Virus record (IMG/VR): IMGVR_UViG_3300050821_004409
Location: 1-48,963 of that record
Length of the DNA: 48,963 bases
Source of the DNA: a virus
Reading direction: 5' to 3' (one strand)
A program made the position numbers and the translations under genes. The notes under the pieces are model-generated. The model ran no database searches, was not told the origin of the DNA, and saw only the letters and a list, made by a program, of their open reading frames with translations. Positions within the stretch are counted from its first letter, which is position 1. Every line of letters starts with the position of its first letter. Positions 2,311 to 48,958 of the stretch are shown piece after piece.

Positions 2311-2966
2311 TGGCACAACCATCCGTATATTTTTGGAGTGTGGATAGCGCATTATCAGTAGCGATTGCTCAAAGTCCGGGCGCGCCTAATTATGCGTATG
2401 TTTTAAATGGTGATCTCTCTTATGCACCAAATCCAGATAGCCCAAATAGAATTGCAAGTTTTGGAAACTGTTCTAGGACAGTGAGTGTTGCTTCTGGTTT
2501 TGATGATTCTACTAATAATTTCACTATTACCGGAACTTATCAAGGAAATCCGCAGACTGAAACAATTGCTGGTCCAAATAATGATACAGTTTATACTACA
2601 AAACTTTTTGATACTGTTACGAGTGTGACTGTGGATACTACGTTAGCAGGGGGTCCCGCTGATATAGGGGCTGGTGAAACGGGTCAAACTTGGTGGTTTA
2701 AACATAATCCATATTCAGTTCCTTCAGAAACCACTGTTCAGGTAGAAGTGACTGGAACCATTGAATATACATTAGTGTCTACTTTATACGATGTAGAAAA
2801 AGTTTCTAATCCTCCTACGTTTGAGTCGGTTTCAGACATGATAGCTGAAACTGCGAGTGAATTTGGCATAGTTTCTGTGCCAGCGCTTTACTCGGCAATT
2901 GTTATTAATAGCTCAACTCCTGGTGGAGGCTTAACGGCTACTTTCTTACAGCAAGGAATAACCTAA
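2310..2966 (+). CDS. Hypothetical beta-rich virion protein
   Basis: The 218-residue product overlaps its neighbours by one base on each side. Residues 1-135 are threonine-, serine- and glycine-rich with alternating hydrophobics, consistent with a beta-sandwich. The C-terminal third contains a short helical stretch (SVSDMIAETASEF). Its position between decoration proteins and the head-completion genes suggests a minor virion protein. No named family is recognised. Confidence 0.6.
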   Translation: MAQPSVYFWSVDSALSVAIAQSPGAPNYAYVLNGDLSYAPNPDSPNRIASFGNCSRTVSVASGFDDSTNNFTITGTYQGNPQTETIAGPNNDTVYTTKLFDTVTSVTVDTTLAGGPADIGAGETGQTWWFKHNPYSVPSETTVQVEVTGTIEYTLVSTLYDVEKVSNPPTFESVSDMIAETASEFGIVSVPALYSAIVINSSTPGGGLTATFLQQGIT

Positions 2967-3154
2967 TGTCTAGAGCGCGTAAAATGTGGATACAGTCTGC
3001 AATTAAACATCCGGGAGCATTACATAAGTCTCTACATGTACCTAAAAGAAATAAAATTCCTGAAGCAAAATTAGAACATGCAATGCATTCCAAGAATCCC
3101 ATTCTTAGAAAAAGGGCAAATTCGGCCTATACCCTTAAACGCATGCACCCTTAG
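2966..3154 (+). CDS. Small basic conserved phage protein
   Basis: The 62-residue product is rich in lysine, arginine and histidine. It matches a pattern common in phages: a start such as KMWIQSAIKHPGALHKSL, an IPEAKLEHA segment, and a C-terminal KRAN-x-A-x-TLK. Members are frequently found near capsid and adaptor genes, but their function is not established. It overlaps the preceding stop by one base (TAATG). The positive charge would allow DNA or capsid-interior contact. This is inference. Confidence 0.65.
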   Translation: MSRARKMWIQSAIKHPGALHKSLHVPKRNKIPEAKLEHAMHSKNPILRKRANSAYTLKRMHP

Positions 3155-3174
3155 GTCTTTAACAGGATGAATAG

Positions 3175-4239
3175 ATGTCTACGTCCGGCACTTATGAATT
3201 TGCTTCTCCTCAGAGTAAGGAGATTATAGAAGACGCTTACGAGCGTATCGGCATCATATCGCCTCAATTAGACCACACTAAAATATATGCAGCTCAGCGT
3301 TCTATTAACTTCACATTACAATCTTGGATTAACAGAGGTTTAAACCTGTGGACAGTTCAAACAGGAATGTTGGCCTTAACTCCTAACCAGAACACATATA
3401 ATCTTCCTTTATATATTAGTGATATTTTAGAAGCCACTATTAGGACTTCTACGCGCAATCTTGGTGGAACTGCATTTTCAAGCGCAGGTGGTGTAGCTGC
3501 GAATGCTTTCGACAACAATCCTGCAACAGCATGTACGCAAACGGCTCCTAACGGAAATATCAGTTATAATTGGGGAGCATTGCAATATCCTATTGCTATG
3601 GTTGGCGTTCAGTCTAATGCGACTCTGAATTATACATTATCGTTTCAATATTCTAACGATAATATAACATGGACCACGCTTAGTATGGCCCCTATTCAAA
3701 GCTATCCGGTAGGGGTCATACAGTGGTTTGTTATTCCGGTTCCTACTTTAGGAAACTGGTTTAGAGTATTAGAAACAGGGGGGGCTACCCTTAATGTACA
3801 AGAGTTGTATTTCAATACAACATTAGATGACACTATTGTTACTAGAATGTCTCGCGCAGAATATATAGCTACCCCTAATAAAAATAACCCTGCACGCCCT
3901 ACTAGTTTTTATGTATCGCGTTTAATTAATCCGACTGTTGCTATATGGCCTACGCCGACCGCTCAATACAATAATCTTTTTTATACCTATGTTTTACAGA
4001 TGCAAGATGTAGGTTCTATGGTTGATAGTGCGCAGATTCCAGCACGTTTCTTAGAAGCTTTATGCGCCACTACAGCTTTTAAATTAGGGATTAAAAATCC
4101 AAGCATTGTAGATATAAATAAACTTAATATGTTAAAGGCGTTAGCAGATGAAGAATATCATATTGCTGCTGAAGAAGACCGCGAACGTGTTCCATTAAGA
4201 ATCTATGGTGATTATACACAAGGATGGACCTCTGTATGA
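3175..4239 (+). CDS. Head-tail adaptor (gp4-like) with inserted discoidin-like domain
   Basis: The 354-residue product has the framework of podoviral head-completion adaptors. Residues 1-92 are helical followed by a YNLPLYISDILEA strand. Residues 216-354 resume with a polar region, an IWPTPT strand and a helical C-terminus rich in acidic residues. Between them, residues 95-215 form an extra domain that reads like an F5/8-type-C (discoidin, galactose-binding-like) module: GGVAANAFDNNPATA, a following W, VGVQSNATLNYTLSFQYS, then W-F-x-I-P and GNWFRVLE. In known proteins such modules bind sugars. Here it would sit at the portal-tail junction or project from it. The adaptor call is good and the discoidin call moderate. 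Confidence 0.7.
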   Translation: MSTSGTYEFASPQSKEIIEDAYERIGIISPQLDHTKIYAAQRSINFTLQSWINRGLNLWTVQTGMLALTPNQNTYNLPLYISDILEATIRTSTRNLGGTAFSSAGGVAANAFDNNPATACTQTAPNGNISYNWGALQYPIAMVGVQSNATLNYTLSFQYSNDNITWTTLSMAPIQSYPVGVIQWFVIPVPTLGNWFRVLETGGATLNVQELYFNTTLDDTIVTRMSRAEYIATPNKNNPARPTSFYVSRLINPTVAIWPTPTAQYNNLFYTYVLQMQDVGSMVDSAQIPARFLEALCATTAFKLGIKNPSIVDINKLNMLKALADEEYHIAAEEDRERVPLRIYGDYTQGWTSV

Positions 4240-23768: not shown

Positions 23769-23845
23769 TGGTGGCCAGAGAAAGAATCGAACTTCCCACG
23801 CGTGGATTTTCAGCCCACCGCTCTACCATCTGAGCTATCTGGCCA
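23769..23845 (-). tRNA. tRNA-Phe (GAA), CCA encoded
   Basis: Reading the minus strand from 23845, all cloverleaf parts are present. The acceptor TGGCCAG/CTGGCCA is perfect. The D-stem is AGCTC/GAGC, the anticodon stem GTGGG/TCCAC has one G-U pair, and the seven-base loop CTGAAAA has anticodon GAA (23811-23809). The T-stem is GGAAG/CTTTC with loop TTCGATT, and CCA is encoded. The U1-A72 first pair is unusual for tRNA-Phe. It is the only tRNA in the genome and sits antisense to the surrounding rightward genes. Confidence 0.93.
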
Positions 23846-41129: not shown

Positions 41130-43580
41130 ATGTCTGCTATTTCCCCGTTCGATGACAGTATATATGAATCTCAGGCACCTTCTCATGAGGAGGCTGCCAA
41201 TATTCCTGTGGAGAACATTGAAGAGGTAGGAAGAACGGAAGATGGGAGTCCTATCTTTGATGTTAAAGATGAAAATAAGAAAGAAGAAAAGCGTCCCTCC
41301 GAAGATGATTTCTATGCCAATCTTGCCCTAGAGTTAGATGACGCAAGCCTTAGAGGGCTAGCAGGGTCGTTACTAGAAGAAATCAAGGAAGACCTTGAAT
41401 CCAGAAAAGGATGGGAAAAGACCATTAATCTAGCGTTGAAGTATTTAGGGCATGCCATTGAAGAAGACCGTACGGTACCCTTTTTAAGGGCGTGTGCGGC
41501 TTTTGACTCTACCTTGTCGAGTGCAGTACTCACTTCTTATTCGGTGGCCAGGGCAGAGCTATTTCCGGCTTCTGGACCAGCTAGAGCTGAGATTGAAGGT
41601 ATGCCAACTCCTGAGAACGAAGACCAAGGAGAGCGTGTAAAGTATTTTCTTAACTATTTCCTAACTAAGATAGACCGAGGTTATTACCCAGACTCAGATA
41701 GATTACTGATGTATTTAATCTTGTGCGGAAGCGCTGTACGGAAGGTCTATCAAGACCCCATCCTAGGTCGTCCTAATCCGCGCTTTATAAAACCTCAAGA
41801 TTTTATTATTAACCATAACGCTATCAGCGTACTAGACAGTACGCGGCTAACCGAAAGAATCCTTTTAAGCAAGAAAGATATCATATTAAAAGAAAGAAGT
41901 GGGGACTTCACTATAGAAGATACCCCTGATATAAACGAAGAAGAAGAACCGAGCTCCATTGCGAAAACAATAAAAAAAATAGAGGGAGTATCTACAGATG
42001 CGCATCAAAATAAGAGTCTATTTGACTTTTATGAAGTACATGTAGAATTAACCCAAGAAGAAGTAGAAGGTAAAAAACTTCTTAAATCAAAAACCAACAA
42101 GAAAAATAAAAAAGAGAAAGACTTACCAAAACCTTACGTTGTCATGATTGATGTTAGCAAAAAGAAAGTTCGGTCAATCAAACGTAACTGGAAAGAGAAG
42201 GATGAGAAATACAAACGATTAGAGTGTTTTGTGCTTTATCAATACCTTACTGGTTTTGGCATATATGGTTTGGGTCTAGCGCATTTAATGGGCTCAAATG
42301 CGATTGTATTGACCCAAATACTAAGGCAATCCGTGGATGCTGCTGTTTTACAGAGCTTTCCAGGCGGCATAAAGACACGCGGAATGAAGGCAGAAAATAA
42401 TGATAAAGCCATTGGTCCTACTGAGTTTTTAGAAGTAGAAACTGGAGGGCAACCTATCCGTGACTGCTTTATGTTGATGCCTTACGCTGGACCTTCTCAG
42501 CCTTTGTTGCAACTTAGAAATGAAATCAAGCAAGAAACAGCTCAGGGTGGCTCCGCTGCTGAAGCCCCTTTACCAGAGAATGGTACCAATACTCCGGTGG
42601 GAACCACCTTAGCGATGCTAGAGGTAGCTAATAGGGTACAGTCTTCGGTATTACGGTCCTTGCATGTTTCGTTAGGGTATGAACTTCAACTTATCTTTAA
42701 TTTATTCGCTGAATATTTAGAAGATGAGCCATATCCTTTTTCAGTTCCAGGGAAAGATGTCACCATTATGCGGCAGGACTTTAATGACAAAGTGTCAATT
42801 ATGCCTGTATCCGACCCTAATGTTCTTACTAGCACTCATAGATTGCTAAGAACAGAAGCAGAACTGAAGCTTGCACAAAGCGCGCCTGAGATATACGACA
42901 TGAAAGAAGCGCATCGCCGAATGTTGCGTGCCATGAACGTAGAAGGCATTGAAAAACTAATCCCTGATGAAGATGAACCTCAAGCGCTTGACCCTACTAC
43001 TGAAAATATATTTTTCATGAATGGCAAGCCAATAACAGTAGGTTCTTTTCAGGACGATGAAGCACATCTTATTGTGCATAGAAGGTTCTTAGAAGAAATA
43101 CAGAATAATCCACAATTATTCAACCTTCAGGTTATTAATACAATAAAGATGCACATTCAAAAACATGAAGCTTATAAGATATATAAGCAACTAAAACAAT
43201 ATATGAATGTGCATATAAAAGAAGAAGAAATCATGAGTAATCACCAAATTCAGAACATGCTTGCAATGCAAGATGCTCAAAATGTAATGCAAATAATGCA
43301 ACAAGAACAACAACAGCAACAAGAAGCAGCAGAGGCTCAGAAAAACCAACTAGACCCCAATGCTGTCATGATGGCTGATATCGAACAACATAGAGAAGCT
43401 TCTCATCTAAAAGATGAAGAAGCCAAATTAAAAGCTGAGACAGAAGCTTTTAAAGCTCAATTAAAATTTGAGAGTGAAACCTCAAAAATTGAAGCTGACA
43501 AGGAAATGGCGGTCAACAAGAATGAAGTTGACTTAACCATTGCACACTCTAAACAACCAACTCAGGAGCCTATGCTATGA
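41130..43580 (+). CDS. Portal protein, P22-like
   Basis: The 816-residue product forms the dodecameric DNA channel. Residues 1-60 are acidic and disordered and carry the EEVGRTEDGSPIF peptide. Residues 65-560 have the typical podoviral portal core: WEKTINLALKYLG, AELFPASGPARAEI, YFLNYFLTKIDRGYYPDSDRLLMYLILCGSAVRKVYQDP, RFIKPQDFIIN, and later PLPENGTNTPVGTTLAMLEVANRVQSSVLRSLH. The C-terminal 150 residues are a Gln/Glu/Lys-rich coiled coil, compatible with the barrel of P22 portals. It overlaps the next gene by four bases. The length is normal for the P22 type. Confidence 0.88.
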   Translation: MSAISPFDDSIYESQAPSHEEAANIPVENIEEVGRTEDGSPIFDVKDENKKEEKRPSEDDFYANLALELDDASLRGLAGSLLEEIKEDLESRKGWEKTINLALKYLGHAIEEDRTVPFLRACAAFDSTLSSAVLTSYSVARAELFPASGPARAEIEGMPTPENEDQGERVKYFLNYFLTKIDRGYYPDSDRLLMYLILCGSAVRKVYQDPILGRPNPRFIKPQDFIINHNAISVLDSTRLTERILLSKKDIILKERSGDFTIEDTPDINEEEEPSSIAKTIKKIEGVSTDAHQNKSLFDFYEVHVELTQEEVEGKKLLKSKTNKKNKKEKDLPKPYVVMIDVSKKKVRSIKRNWKEKDEKYKRLECFVLYQYLTGFGIYGLGLAHLMGSNAIVLTQILRQSVDAAVLQSFPGGIKTRGMKAENNDKAIGPTEFLEVETGGQPIRDCFMLMPYAGPSQPLLQLRNEIKQETAQGGSAAEAPLPENGTNTPVGTTLAMLEVANRVQSSVLRSLHVSLGYELQLIFNLFAEYLEDEPYPFSVPGKDVTIMRQDFNDKVSIMPVSDPNVLTSTHRLLRTEAELKLAQSAPEIYDMKEAHRRMLRAMNVEGIEKLIPDEDEPQALDPTTENIFFMNGKPITVGSFQDDEAHLIVHRRFLEEIQNNPQLFNLQVINTIKMHIQKHEAYKIYKQLKQYMNVHIKEEEIMSNHQIQNMLAMQDAQNVMQIMQQEQQQQQEAAEAQKNQLDPNAVMMADIEQHREASHLKDEEAKLKAETEAFKAQLKFESETSKIEADKEMAVNKNEVDLTIAHSKQPTQEPML

Positions 43581-45010
43581 ACAAAGAAGAACGCGAAAGA
43601 CATCTTTCTGGATATTCTGGAAAAGATTCGCTACGTGATAATGCCAAGAGAATGTTTGGCGCTGAATTAACTGGGCGCGGAGTTCGAGAAGGATTTCCCG
43701 CATCATTTTCTGCGCCAGGTCGTGAAAAGGCTCGCCTTTATAAGAAAGGTGGTGCAGTCGCCCATGAGATGCCTGATTATCAAACCAATTTACGATTGCC
43801 GCGTAGAGTGCCTACTCCTCGTTTAGATCAGCAGGATTTACATACCGCACAAGTTATGAAACGAGGTGGGCATGCTAAAAGGCATTATGCTGATGGCGGC
43901 CTTTTAGGAAAACTTGGGGGCGTTGGCGACAGTGTACGCGGTCAACTAGGTGACCACATAAATACTCTTTTAGGGAGACTTGGGCCATTCGGAGGAGTAA
44001 TAAGAACTGTTAAAGATAGTTTAGGATTTGAACGAGGGGGGTATGTAAAACGAGGTCATCGTGGTTATAGGCGCCATAGAGCAGAAGGCGGCGAATTAGA
44101 AGGAACTCAGACTTCTACTATGACTTCAGAACATCCTGATATGCCTCATATGGAAGAGAAGCGTGCTGATATGCCTGAAGCTCATCATGAGCCAGAGCCA
44201 CATCATGAAGAAGCGTACCATATTCCAGATGCACCGCCGCCGCCTCCCATCAAAAAGGCGAAAAAAATTGAGCCCGAAATTCATCATGAAGAGGAGGCTT
44301 ATCATATTCCAGATGCGCCCCCTCCTCCTCCTGAAAAAAAGATGAAGATTAAGAAAAGTCTGCTAGGTTCCCCTGTGGAAGCTTCTATCGCATCGCCAGC
44401 TAAAGGACAGATGTTTCAAAGACATCATGAGGGCCGTAGAGGAAGAGCCATGGGAGCAGGTAGAGGAATGGCACTCGTTGGAAGAGCAAGACGATATAAA
44501 GATGGCGGACCTGCTCAACACTATGACTTTGGAGGAATCGTAAAAGGAATTGGGAATGTCGCTTTACATTTACTGCCTTCACTTATTCCAATGTTAATGA
44601 AAAAAGAAGGAGGCCAAGTCAACATGCAGCATTTACATAGACAACTCGAAAGCGCGCTTACGACTGAAAAACGTAGAGGTGGCCACTTAAGACAAGGGCA
44701 CAAGGGTCATCATTACGCTAAAGGCGGCAGCGTTTATGAAAGCATGATGGTTGGCGAGCCTGGACATTCTAAAAGAGCTCCTAGAAACAATTGGGAGTCT
44801 GTAATGAGAGGTGAGCATGCTCAACGTTCTCCAGAAGGAAGAAAGTCTGCTAGGCATCCTGGAGAAGATATGTCGCATGGAACCGTTTTCAAACGCGGTG
44901 GAAGAATGGCAGCTGGAGGAGTTGCTAAAATTCGGCATGATGTAGCCAATAAAAGAGGGCGCCCCATGCACGCAGCACATATTCAAAGAACTCCAAATTT
45001 GTTTGATTAA
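43577..45010 (+). CDS. Putative internal head protein with His/Pro repeat
   Basis: The 477-residue product is basic with many Arg, His and Gly. It contains repeated KRGGHAKRHYADGG-type segments, and in the middle a duplicated unit of acidic HHEEAYHIPDAPPPPP followed by KK (about residues 205-255). Similar RGG-type segments occur in the ejection-module protein at 8300. The proline and histidine repeats look like flexible linkers. It is probably a virion-internal, DNA-associated protein. No enzymatic domain is recognised. Confidence 0.5.
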   Translation: MNKEERERHLSGYSGKDSLRDNAKRMFGAELTGRGVREGFPASFSAPGREKARLYKKGGAVAHEMPDYQTNLRLPRRVPTPRLDQQDLHTAQVMKRGGHAKRHYADGGLLGKLGGVGDSVRGQLGDHINTLLGRLGPFGGVIRTVKDSLGFERGGYVKRGHRGYRRHRAEGGELEGTQTSTMTSEHPDMPHMEEKRADMPEAHHEPEPHHEEAYHIPDAPPPPPIKKAKKIEPEIHHEEEAYHIPDAPPPPPEKKMKIKKSLLGSPVEASIASPAKGQMFQRHHEGRRGRAMGAGRGMALVGRARRYKDGGPAQHYDFGGIVKGIGNVALHLLPSLIPMLMKKEGGQVNMQHLHRQLESALTTEKRRGGHLRQGHKGHHYAKGGSVYESMMVGEPGHSKRAPRNNWESVMRGEHAQRSPEGRKSARHPGEDMSHGTVFKRGGRMAAGGVAKIRHDVANKRGRPMHAAHIQRTPNLFD

Positions 45011-45029: not shown

Positions 45030-45263
45030 ATGAACCTTAGGTTTTGTGAAAATTTGTTGGTAAGGATAAGAGAAAGGCAGGGAGTATATGCAGACCGTAT
45101 ACTCTCTGGCACTTTTGATAAAATTGAAGACTATAAGTTTGTTGTTGGTAAGTGGCAAGCAATGCGTGAAGCAGAAGAAATTATTTGCCGTTTATACAAG
45201 GACATGTTTGACACCAAATATTTAAGTAAAGAGGGAAATAATGAAGAATTTGAAACAGATTAG
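45030..45263 (+). CDS. Small head-module protein
   Basis: The 77-residue product contains DYKFVVGKWQAMREAEEIICRLYKD, a pattern common to a small helical protein found between portal and scaffold in many podoviruses. Function is unestablished. The last 23 bases overlap the next gene. Confidence 0.6.
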   Translation: MNLRFCENLLVRIRERQGVYADRILSGTFDKIEDYKFVVGKWQAMREAEEIICRLYKDMFDTKYLSKEGNNEEFETD

Positions 45264-45672
45264 TTATATAGAAGAACATGAAGAAGAAGAAGCAATACGT
45301 TTCGTAGAAGAAAAACTTGGATGTGAACGTCCAAGAGTGTGCGGCCCCTGGTTAGCGGTAATGCTTTATACCCGACATGAAGAAACCTATGTAACGAAAG
45401 AAGGGGAGAAAAGCCAGATAGTAGTACCTGGAAGTGTTGCAGATAATGATACATTTTCAAGTATGACTGGATTAGTGCTCTCTATTGGGCACGGTGCCTA
45501 TAAGGGCGAACAATTTAAAGAGTACGGCCCTACTTGTAAAGTGGGTGATTGGATAACTTTCCCTCGTCACGAAGGCGTAAGAGCTTGGTATAAAGGAAGG
45601 CCAATTTACTACCTCTACGATGACAAGATTATGCAAGTCGTAAAAGACCCTGCGGACGTTACGAGAGATTAA
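45241..45672 (+). CDS. GroES-like co-chaperonin
   Basis: The 143-residue product matches the Cpn10 fold in its C-terminal two thirds: GLVLSIGHGAYKG (77-89), CKVGDWITFPRH (99-110), then a YKG turn and YDDKIMQVVKDPADV (126-140). Residues 49-75 (ETYVTKEGEKSQIVVPGS) are placed where the mobile loop that contacts GroEL lies, and the first 30 residues are an acidic extension. T4 gp31 is the classic phage example; it replaces GroES for capsid folding. Its place between portal and scaffold fits a role in capsid protein folding. The gene has its own agaggg site. Confidence 0.75.
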   Translation: MKNLKQISYIEEHEEEEAIRFVEEKLGCERPRVCGPWLAVMLYTRHEETYVTKEGEKSQIVVPGSVADNDTFSSMTGLVLSIGHGAYKGEQFKEYGPTCKVGDWITFPRHEGVRAWYKGRPIYYLYDDKIMQVVKDPADVTRD

Positions 45673-46652: not shown

Positions 46653-47147
46653 ATGGAAAAAGTAAAAAATCCACGAAAGAGTCGAATTGAATCTACCCGT
46701 AGAACACAAGAACGTCAAAATGTAGATAGACCTAAACAAAAAATGTTCTTTCAAAATATTGATGATATCGATCCGAGGTCGATTCCAGCAGGGATGGAAT
46801 ATTATCGCGCTCGCGTTCAAATTGGGGAACACGATGACACAGGGCGCCTTCCCGACATGATGCGTAAAGGATGGACGCTGGTTCCTGCTGATAGACATCC
46901 TGAAATGGCATTTTCAGACCCATTGGGAAGACTGACTACTTATAAAGGGTATATCTACCACAAAGGAGGCATTCTCTGCGAACGCCCAATAGAGCTCGGA
47001 AAACAAGAGTATGACAGACTACATGATAGAAATATGAGTGACTTACTAAATATGCCGGGTACGGATAACTTTTTAGGAGAGCCTAGTATTCCTGGAGCAG
47101 TTCAGTATCAAACTTATGTTACCAAAAATGCTACCTTTGGAAGATAA
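46653..47147 (+). CDS. Hypothetical head-module protein
   Basis: The 164-residue product starts after gaggaggaag. The N-terminus is basic and disordered. The core (IPAGMEYYRARVQIGEHDDTGRLPDMMRKGWTLVPADRHPEM, then KGGILCERPIELGKQEYDRL) resembles a protein found next to capsid genes in several podoviruses. Its function is unknown. It precedes the structured leader of the next gene. Confidence 0.55.
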   Translation: MEKVKNPRKSRIESTRRTQERQNVDRPKQKMFFQNIDDIDPRSIPAGMEYYRARVQIGEHDDTGRLPDMMRKGWTLVPADRHPEMAFSDPLGRLTTYKGYIYHKGGILCERPIELGKQEYDRLHDRNMSDLLNMPGTDNFLGEPSIPGAVQYQTYVTKNATFGR

Positions 47148-47162
47148 AAAATAATTTTAAAA

Positions 47163-47218
47163 GACTAGTATCTAAATATAAATTTGGTGTATACTCATCA
47201 CTAGTTTAGATGCTAGTC
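47163..47218 (+). ncRNA. 14-bp hairpin in the capsid-region leader
   Basis: GACTAGTATCTAAA (47163-47176) pairs with TTTAGATGCTAGTC (47205-47218), with one G-U pair. The loop holds a possible -10 (TATACT, 47190-47195). No T-tract follows, so it is not a simple terminator. It may be an RNA processing site, as with RNase III, or a 5' stabiliser for the capsid messages. Confidence 0.45.
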
Positions 47219-47230
47219 ATAGTTTCTAAA

Positions 47231-47365
47231 AGACGGACCTGAGTCTTCAAACGGTCGGAGCCATAATCTCCCGGTCATCTGGGCCATAAATCAGAAGGGC
47301 GGACCTGAGCCCTAAAAGCGGTCGAGAGCAATCTCTAAGTTTTAACTGATTTATTATCGGAGATT
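47231..47365 (+). ncRNA. Tandem pseudoknot-like RNA elements in a virion leader
   Basis: Two copies of one structure lie at 47231-47271 and 47297-47335. In each, a 4-bp stem (AGAC/GTCT or GGGC/GCCC) holds an identical eight-base loop GGACCTGA. Loop bases GACC pair with a downstream GGTC (47253-47256 or 47320-47323), an H-type pseudoknot. A hairpin follows (GGAG/CTCC or GAGA-GCAA-TCTC). Copy 2 is enclosed by AAATCAG/CTGATTT (47288-47294/47346-47352). AATCTCT (47330-47336) can alternatively pair with GGAGATT (47359-47365), the ribosome binding site of the 47371 gene. Confidence 0.6.
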
Positions 47366-47370
47366 TTTTT

Positions 47371-48036
47371 ATGGCTTACGGCAATGCGACCAATTCCCCT
47401 TTTGGGTTTCGCCCATCTCAATATTTGAATGGTAGTTTATATACGGGCCAACAAAGTCCTTATTTGATTGCTTCTGGCTATGCTGCTTCTATTTATCAAG
47501 GCGATTTAGTAATTCAGGCTAATAACGGCACTATTAACGTAGCTGCTGCTGGTGGCACTATTCTGGGTGTTTTTGCTGGGTGTAAATTTATAGATGCTAA
47601 TGGCGTTGCACAATACTTAAAGTATTGGCCTGCCAATCAAGTAACGATGGGTGCTGTTAATGCAGAAGCATTCATAATTGACGATCCGGATGTGCTCTTT
47701 GATGTTCAAACTTCTAACAGCACAAACGTAGCATCTGCAATTAATACCGTTTCTATTTCAACTGTTCAACTCTATCTAAATGCTAACTTAGGATTAGCAG
47801 GTGGTGGTGCAGCTGGCCCATTGGCACCCGCCAATCCTGCGACCGGTTCTACCATTAGCGGACAATCTGCCATGTATTTGGATTACAACACTCTCAATAC
47901 TACAGCGACCCTACAGTTGAAAATCGTTCGGTTTACGCCAGTTCCAGGCAATGCTAGCGCAGTATTGTTTAACAATACGTTGGTATTAATCAATAACCAT
48001 GTTTACAAAGGCGGCACCGGAACTTTGGGCGTATAA
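47371..48036 (+). CDS. Putative capsid decoration / head protein
   Basis: The 221-residue product resembles a group of proteins found just before the capsid gene in many podoviruses: AYGNATNSPFGFRPSQYLNGSLYTGQ at the start, then YLIASGYAASIYQGDLVIQANNG. The rest is beta-rich. Its ribosome binding site (47359-47362) is in the structured leader described above. It likely decorates or stabilises the capsid shell. Translation is probably controlled by the leader. Confidence 0.6.
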   Translation: MAYGNATNSPFGFRPSQYLNGSLYTGQQSPYLIASGYAASIYQGDLVIQANNGTINVAAAGGTILGVFAGCKFIDANGVAQYLKYWPANQVTMGAVNAEAFIIDDPDVLFDVQTSNSTNVASAINTVSISTVQLYLNANLGLAGGGAAGPLAPANPATGSTISGQSAMYLDYNTLNTTATLQLKIVRFTPVPGNASAVLFNNTLVLINNHVYKGGTGTLGV

Positions 48037-48055: not shown

Positions 48056-48958
48056 ATGGCAATTAATACTACGTCAATAGCTAACCTACTTCGACCAGGA
48101 TTAGCTGCGGTATTTGGTGATTATCCAATGTACCCAAGTCAATGGTCCGAAATATATAGCGTATACGATTCAGATAAGGCAGTTGAAATCGAAGTAGAAA
48201 TGAGAATGTTGGGTCTAGCACAACTTAGACCAGAAGGTTCTCCTACGGCGGTTGATACGATGGGCCAACGGATTACCACCAACTACACGCATAAGTATGT
48301 TGCTTTATCCTTCAATATCACTAGACAGGCTCTAGTTGATAATTTGTATAAAACGAAGTTTCCATTAATGGTACGCGCATTGAAAGATTCTATGGCTCAA
48401 ACCAAAGAAATTTTAGGTGCTTCCGTATTAAACAATGGTAACAACGCAGCATTTCCAATTGGTGATGGCCAACCATTATTCAGTTTAAATCACCCGATTG
48501 ATACTGGAGTTGTTGCAAATACTCCAACTATCCAAACGGATTTAACAGAAGGTTCTCTGGAAGCCGGATTGATAGCAATTCAGCAATTCCGTAACCAAGC
48601 TGGTTTGATTGTTCAAACTAAACCTAAGAAGCTTATTGTTCCACCATTAGGACAATTTGTTGCTGAACGTTTATTAGCGTCTGCATTTAGAACGGGCACA
48701 AACGTGAACGATATAAGTGCGACATATAATCTAACAGCAGTTCCTGAAGGGTACAGGGTCAACCAGTTCTTAAATGCAAATAATGCATGGTTCTTATTGA
48801 CCGATGCTAATGACGGGTTCAAACACTATGTCAGAGAAAGTCTGGAAACAGATGTATATACTGATTTCCAAACTGATAATCTTCTCGCGAAAGCAGTAGA
48901 AAGATACAGTTTTGGTGTTTCTAACTTCCGTGCTGCTTATGCGAGCTATGGTCCATAA
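48056..48958 (+). CDS. Major capsid protein
   Basis: The 300-residue product reads like the HK97-fold capsid proteins of the phage Mu gpT type. It has an N-terminal helix region (TTSIANLLRPGLAAVFGDYP), a YVALSFNITRQALVDNLYKTKFPLMVRALKDSMAQTKEILGASVLNNG core, a P-domain-like turn with DGQPLFSLNHP, and C-terminal AVERYSFGVSNFRAAYASYGP. It follows the 221-residue gene by 19 bases with aggag. The last 98 bases of the window repeat its end at the left edge, so it is split only by linearisation. Confidence 0.85.
   Translation: MAINTTSIANLLRPGLAAVFGDYPMYPSQWSEIYSVYDSDKAVEIEVEMRMLGLAQLRPEGSPTAVDTMGQRITTNYTHKYVALSFNITRQALVDNLYKTKFPLMVRALKDSMAQTKEILGASVLNNGNNAAFPIGDGQPLFSLNHPIDTGVVANTPTIQTDLTEGSLEAGLIAIQQFRNQAGLIVQTKPKKLIVPPLGQFVAERLLASAFRTGTNVNDISATYNLTAVPEGYRVNQFLNANNAWFLLTDANDGFKHYVRESLETDVYTDFQTDNLLAKAVERYSFGVSNFRAAYASYGP

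Follow-up and report, generated by a model that had tools for sequence, protein, structure and literature searches.

Tandem pseudoknots ahead of phage decoration and capsid genes point to an undescribed RNA control element in the capsid mRNA leader

Introduction

Promoters and ribosome binding sites are usually seen as what balances head protein synthesis in tailed phages. In RNA phages, the MS2-type coat-protein operator, a single protein-binding hairpin, reports free coat protein. The H-type pseudoknot is a fold that aptamers often use. Phages with gpT-type capsid genes can carry the Mu-gpT-DE RNA (RF03012) downstream of gpT, a position that we take to define the family. In the gene 32 operators of phages T4 and RB69, gp32 binding over the ribosome binding site is nucleated by a leader pseudoknot, and the sequences of the two operators diverge while the fold stays similar (PMC535899).

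Here we analyze the leader of a decoration and capsid gene pair in a virus record of 48,963 bases (hereafter the window, meaning this whole stretch of DNA), together with the corresponding leaders of related phages. The data suggest that the leader of a phage capsid mRNA harbors an RNA control element not yet described.

Results

A run of head genes near the end of the window encodes, in order, a portal protein, a GroES-like co-chaperonin, two further proteins and, after a 223-nt gap, a 221-aa protein (47371..48036, + strand) followed by a 300-aa Mu gpT-type major capsid protein (48056..48958, + strand; PHROGs major head protein, E 2e-15). The 221-aa protein falls in PHROG 37556, of unknown function, and has no named family; its AlphaFold model (mean pLDDT 80) matches, with modest scores, mainly decoration, stabilizing and capsid chains of phage heads (HFTV1, T1, Sf11, TW1, Pam3 and P21 SHP; Z 5.4-7.4). 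The original prediction had called this a decoration gene, a name that the decoration-like predicted fold supports and that we keep. The GroES-like gene (45241-45672) lies inside the head cluster and is kept in several relatives; between it and the portal gene, a 477-aa protein rich in G, K, R and H repeats (43577-45010) has no PHROGs match. Elsewhere, a tRNA-Phe gene (anticodon GAA; 23769-23844, minus strand) is the sole Rfam match of the whole window.

The 223-nt gap upstream of the decoration gene holds two H-type pseudoknots on the + strand, 66 nt apart and each with a hairpin directly 3' of it, at 47230-47335. Copy 1 reads AAGAC-[G GACC TGA]-GTCTT-CAAAC-GGTC-GGAG-CCATAAT-CTCC, and copy 2 reads AGGGC-[G GACC TGA]-GCCCT-AAAAGC-GGTC-GAGA-GCAA-TCTC. 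Pseudoknot 1 (47230..47256) consists of hairpin stem P1 (AAGAC/GTCTT, 47230-47234 with 47243-47247) and helix P2 (GACC/GGTC, 47236-47239 with 47253-47256), with an A-rich connector; hairpin P3 of this copy (47257..47271) abuts P2 directly. Pseudoknot 2 (47296..47323) is built in the same way from P1 (AGGGC/GCCCT, 47296-47300 with 47309-47313) and P2 (GACC/GGTC, 47302-47305 with 47320-47323), followed by its own P3 hairpin (47324..47335). The loop GGACCTGA is identical in both copies, and its GACC faces the GGTC 3' of the stem. Reading the sequence thus confirmed what had been predicted here: two copies 66 nt apart with the same loop and compensating stem differences, GACC/GGTC pairing from loop to tail in both, and the hairpins that follow. 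An inter-knot hairpin (47278..47295; TCTG-GGCCATAAAT-CAGA) competes with a helix around pseudoknot 2, which we call P5 (47286..47354), in which ATAAATCAG (47286-47294) pairs with CTGATTTAT (47346-47354) at 9 of 9 positions. Hairpins with an [A/G]GCYAYAA sequence like that of the inter-knot hairpin were read in six other leaders (L004, L088, L172, L243, L252 and L001). The element ends about 35 nt 5' of the decoration gene start codon, and the Shine-Dalgarno sequence and start codon themselves occupy 47359..47373 (GGAG, 47359-47362; ATG, 47371-47373).

Just upstream of the leader, a 14-nt inverted repeat (47163..47218; GACTAGTATCTAAA / TTTAGATGCTAGTC, arms at 47163-47176 and 47205-47218, 13/14 or 93% complementary) surrounds a TATACT box and, judged by its sequence, is a possible promoter or operator region. 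No sigma-70-like site was found on the + strand of the window leader (best hexamer pair p 0.67), nor any intrinsic terminator. The idea that a sigma-70 promoter precedes all such leaders was dropped, a clear one (p <=0.05) being present only in L085, L104, L001, L008, L103, L224 and L243; in these, the first pseudoknot (PK1) lies 8-42 nt past the likely -10 box.

Searches with the capsid and decoration proteins yielded more than 200 IMG/VR loci, two from one actinobacterial MAG, and 19 phage records; the regions upstream of the decoration gene were extracted and near-copies removed, leaving 95 non-redundant leaders. From 26 of these (27 with L311, below) we curated 43 pseudoknot units by reading. 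Paired cells made up 164/170 for P1, 168/172 for P2 and 157/164 for P3 (96-98%), figures that are inflated because the units were picked partly for forming the structure. When 3' strands were swapped between units, mean pairing fell to 61% for P1, 71% for P2 and 61% for P3, with maxima over 2000 swaps of 73%, 81% and 71%. Both helices that make an H-type pseudoknot, the hairpin stem P1 and the loop-to-3'-tail helix P2, show compensating changes.

Three independent controls address the selection of units. A sequence-only MAFFT alignment of nine units left 97.2% of cells paired, with 5 of 8 pairs changed on both sides (double changes at 3 of the 4 P1 pairs); none of 500 shuffles did as well, and sliding the register by 1-3 columns reduced pairing to 11-43%. 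An automatic unit finder averaged 1.04 units per leader, compared with 0.28 for dinucleotide shuffles and 0.58 for coding controls. Finally, a covariance model of the nine units gave strong matches only in this leader, both in 22 whole records and over 403 kb of loci. At least two units were present in 34/62 leaders (55%) under relaxed criteria, compared with 6% of dinucleotide shuffles, and in 30% of the 95 leaders under stricter criteria, compared with 3.5% of shuffles and 15% of coding controls. With covariation present in P1, P2 and P3 and model matches confined to the leader, the central idea of tandem pseudoknots with compensating differences is strongly supported, as related phages change all three helices in compensating fashion.

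The 43 units use 14 combinations of P2 strands, among them GACC/GGTC, TACC/GGTA, GACA/TGTC, GGCC/GGCC, AGCC/GGCT, CGAC/GTCG, GCGA/TCGC, ACCG/CGGT and GGTA/TACC, together with variable loops and variable connectors that are A-rich (52% A). Tandem knots also differ within single leaders (GACC/GGTC and TACC/GGTA in L004, AGCC/GGCT and CGAC/GTCG in L091, TACC/GGTA and GACC/GGTC in L173), which places the pairing inside each unit. Spacing from unit to unit is mostly 63-84 nt, and one leader (L311) reads as three units in a row (GACC/GGTC, GACA/TGTC, GACC/GGTC). What is conserved is the structure, whereas the sequence changes; the element is specific to this leader.

When all IMG/VR contigs were scanned with a pattern, 12 stretches matched, five of them being one terminase-like coding sequence. 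Three others stand before a decoration-gpT pair when read in context, two of them (L309, L312) in phages already in our set and one (L311) in a new phage; the last four come from contigs that we had already included. Across the 22 records and the IMG/VR scan, the motif stands only before decoration-gpT genes, bar the one terminase coding match. Position, specificity across genomes and the decoration-like predicted fold downstream all support assigning the leader to the decoration and capsid genes. A scan of IMG/VR for the tandem GGACCTGA..GGTC..GGACCTGA was set aside: its 73 stretches are close to the count estimated for chance, and none has the full hairpin-plus-GGTC layout with a stem of 5. 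Among INPHARED phages, with gpT up to 47% identity, no such leader was seen in the intergenic regions of HTVC027P, CRP-902 or ct7L0027, those of the former two being short. The element is absent from Rfam 15, where the matches of the leader are weak chance ones (E 5.7 or worse). We found no description of it in the open-licence literature, and one may exist elsewhere.

All 27 leaders of the window type fall within one supported clade, of 51 rows, in a maximum-likelihood tree built from 91 gpT proteins. A further 17 leaders of the same clade were detected as carrying a second type of pseudoknot, with hairpin loops like CTACG, pairing of TACGA/TCGTA, TACGT/ACGTA or TGCGA/TCGCA and P3 often absent, a few of these assignments being doubtful (e.g. 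L272). Second-type pseudoknots in tandem were noted in L136, L141, L145, L147, L150, L152-L157, L161, L257 and L277, where loop segments CTACG/CTGCG and AGGCGA pair with TCGTA/GCGTA/CGTCT, pairs change in compensating fashion and P3 is usually absent.

Outside the 51-row clade, 25 leaders carry 57 hairpins with the loop U[C/U]ACGUA[U/C], mostly two or three in tandem (L108, L162, L163, L178, L185, L187, L189, L192, L198, L212, L216, L217, L221 and L245 are among these leaders). The 8-nt loop is invariant, the stems of 4-7 pairs differ from copy to copy in covarying fashion, and the hairpins lie 45-150 nt upstream of the decoration gene; outside the leaders, the same loci contained none in 1.1 Mb, and Rfam gave no match in the invariant-loop loci tested. 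These hairpins of sister clades are a second undescribed element at the same place, and the combination of invariant loop and free stem looks like that of a protein- or RNA-binding loop. The ACGU within the loop is self-complementary, making loop-loop kissing possible.

The prediction had further coupled the pseudoknots to a ribosome-binding-site switch in which the last hairpin strand of copy 2 pairs with the ribosome binding site. That pairing exists in the window, where 47330-47336 (AATCTCT) can form six Watson-Crick pairs and one G-U pair with the Shine-Dalgarno region at 47359-47365 (GGAGATT). It is not the strongest alternative: in a pseudoknot-free fold, 47260-47271 (GCCATAATCTCC, comprising loop and 3' strand of the copy 1 hairpin) pairs with the start codon as well as the Shine-Dalgarno sequence. 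Enforcing the knots frees the start codon but leaves the Shine-Dalgarno sequence paired, its partner now being the 5' end of the leader. The Shine-Dalgarno sequence of the window has a p_unpaired of 0.00, but its burial is not a conserved property, with no excess over shuffles in 26 leaders (mean rank 0.52). The part of the switch that stands, at modest conservation, is burial of the start codon, which is 0.25 unpaired in the 26 leaders compared with 0.41 in shuffles (Wilcoxon p = 0.005; pseudoknot-free folding program); 26 control leaders showed no such effect (p = 1.0).

Pairing between the flanks of the last knot exceeds expectation in the window (z -3.6) and in L091 (-4.6), L103 (-4.0), L173 (-3.8), L177 (-3.0) and L008 (-2.6). 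A helix around the last curated pseudoknot is not general, reaching z < -1 in 6/24 leaders with the others near zero, and the leaders that have it are chiefly those whose last knot ends <40 nt from the start. Together, the computed start-codon and flank pairing are suggestive of translational control. We rejected a conserved complementarity between the inter-knot hairpin loop and the start codon, as the mean run of 5.74 against 5.40 in shuffles is no excess for the group; individual values reach 8/8 in the window and L004 and 7 in L104, and the cases of L087 and L102, read by eye, appear better explained by a second pseudoknot with a hairpin in its connector. Within the last 25 nt before the start in L085, L104 and L170, the Shine-Dalgarno sequence sits in the loop of a TTGAC-nGGAGA-GTCAA hairpin.

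Discussion

We propose that the element is a post-transcriptional regulator of decoration and capsid translation and that its knots most likely form a two-site operator for a virion protein, a reading to which we assign a probability of roughly 0.4. The element would be the structured leader at the 5' end of the decoration and major capsid mRNA. It would act post-transcriptionally, at the step where translation of the decoration gene is initiated, and local folding of knots and hairpins would compete with long-range pairing over the start codon. The two knots could then offer two sites to an oligomeric virion protein, either decoration or capsid, whose binding would report the amount of unassembled protein, as T4 gp32 does through a single leader pseudoknot. 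Tandem invariant-loop hairpins at the same place in sister clades are expected if this slot holds binding sites. The lack of an intrinsic terminator on the + strand of the leader also speaks for this reading. On the other side, the knot sequences are too divergent between phages for base-by-base reading by one protein, which would need to recognize shape instead or to co-evolve with them; burial of the Shine-Dalgarno sequence is not conserved; the folding model takes no account of pseudoknots; and a clear sigma-70-like promoter is present in some leaders but not in the window. Among the readings considered, a protein-binding leader nevertheless appears the best option.

The main rival is an mRNA stabilizer, in which compact 5' knots block 5'-end-dependent decay or a 5'-3' exonuclease. 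It holds that rank because a function needing shape and not sequence suits the absence of sequence conservation well; A-rich connectors, the tandem arrangement, placement before the genes needed in largest amounts and, where the promoter is clear, the short distance from -10 box to PK1 fit it too. The excess of start-codon pairing and helix P5 would, however, be left unexplained, and no other gene of these phages carries the element; we take stabilization to be unlikely, if a serious contender. Structured RNA near the promoter in some leaders, ahead of a long run of structural genes, would also suit a cis antitermination signal acting on RNA polymerase for the late operon, like the put RNAs of phage HK022. 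Such a signal is improbable here, given that only one such leader was found per genome and that a put RNA is made of two stem-loops whose sequence is conserved.

A riboswitch in which two aptamers cooperate in binding a small molecule, a form of one of the two options raised originally, would account for the tandem copies and for the possible alternative ribosome-binding-site pairing in the window. It is disfavored because 14 P2 strand combinations, with variable loops and connectors, leave no invariant core for a pocket, and no invariant core nucleotides for a ligand were found across the 43 units; with Shine-Dalgarno burial unconserved and no Rfam match, we hold it to be highly improbable. 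That the repeats act as DNA (a protein-binding or packaging site) or are due to chance is scarcely credible: the 14-nt inverted repeat just upstream would speak for it, but compensating changes keep the pseudoknot pairing, shuffles and register slides fail to do so, and 10 G-U pairs against 5 A-C mismatches expected from the other strand are a weak sign of + strand RNA.

A more ambitious version, tentative and rather unlikely as a whole, is a new class of phage autoregulatory RNA in which serial pseudoknots recognize unassembled head protein through shape and match decoration and capsid synthesis to assembly demand, sister clades relying on serial invariant-loop hairpins to the same end. A structured leader RNA found across an environmental phage clade and absent from Rfam makes RNA-level capsid feedback directly testable, and covarying pseudoknots with almost no sequence conservation provide natural sets for benchmarking pseudoknot prediction.

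Membership in Mu-gpT-DE, which had been raised for the window element, can be rejected. Both RNAs occur in phages with gpT-type capsid genes, and Mu-gpT-DE ends at a ribosome binding site; that RNA, however, lies downstream of gpT, is strongly sequence-conserved and forms a single nested hairpin, whereas the window element lies upstream of the decoration gene. The window gave no Mu-gpT-DE match at the gathering threshold (49 bits), and none at E up to 10 in 47140-47400; as a positive control, a relative (L168, Roseobacter phage CRP-902) has a true Mu-gpT-DE at 3496-3548 (72 bits), after its gpT at 2501-3403. The preQ1-I and SAM-II riboswitches resemble the element in having a hairpin whose loop reaches over an A-rich connector to pair with sequence on its 3' side; here, by contrast, there are no invariant pocket nucleotides, the knots are in tandem with P3 hairpins, and no Rfam model matches. 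The MS2-type operator hairpin resembles the tandem invariant-loop hairpins of the sister clades, but the elements of the window type are pseudoknots in double-stranded DNA phages and are candidate binding sites. By analogy, the nearest working precedent would be the gene 32 operator of T4 and RB69, where an H-type pseudoknot likewise precedes the ribosome binding site of a phage gene; there the product is a single-strand-binding protein, whereas here two or three tandem knots with adjoining hairpins precede decoration and capsid genes.
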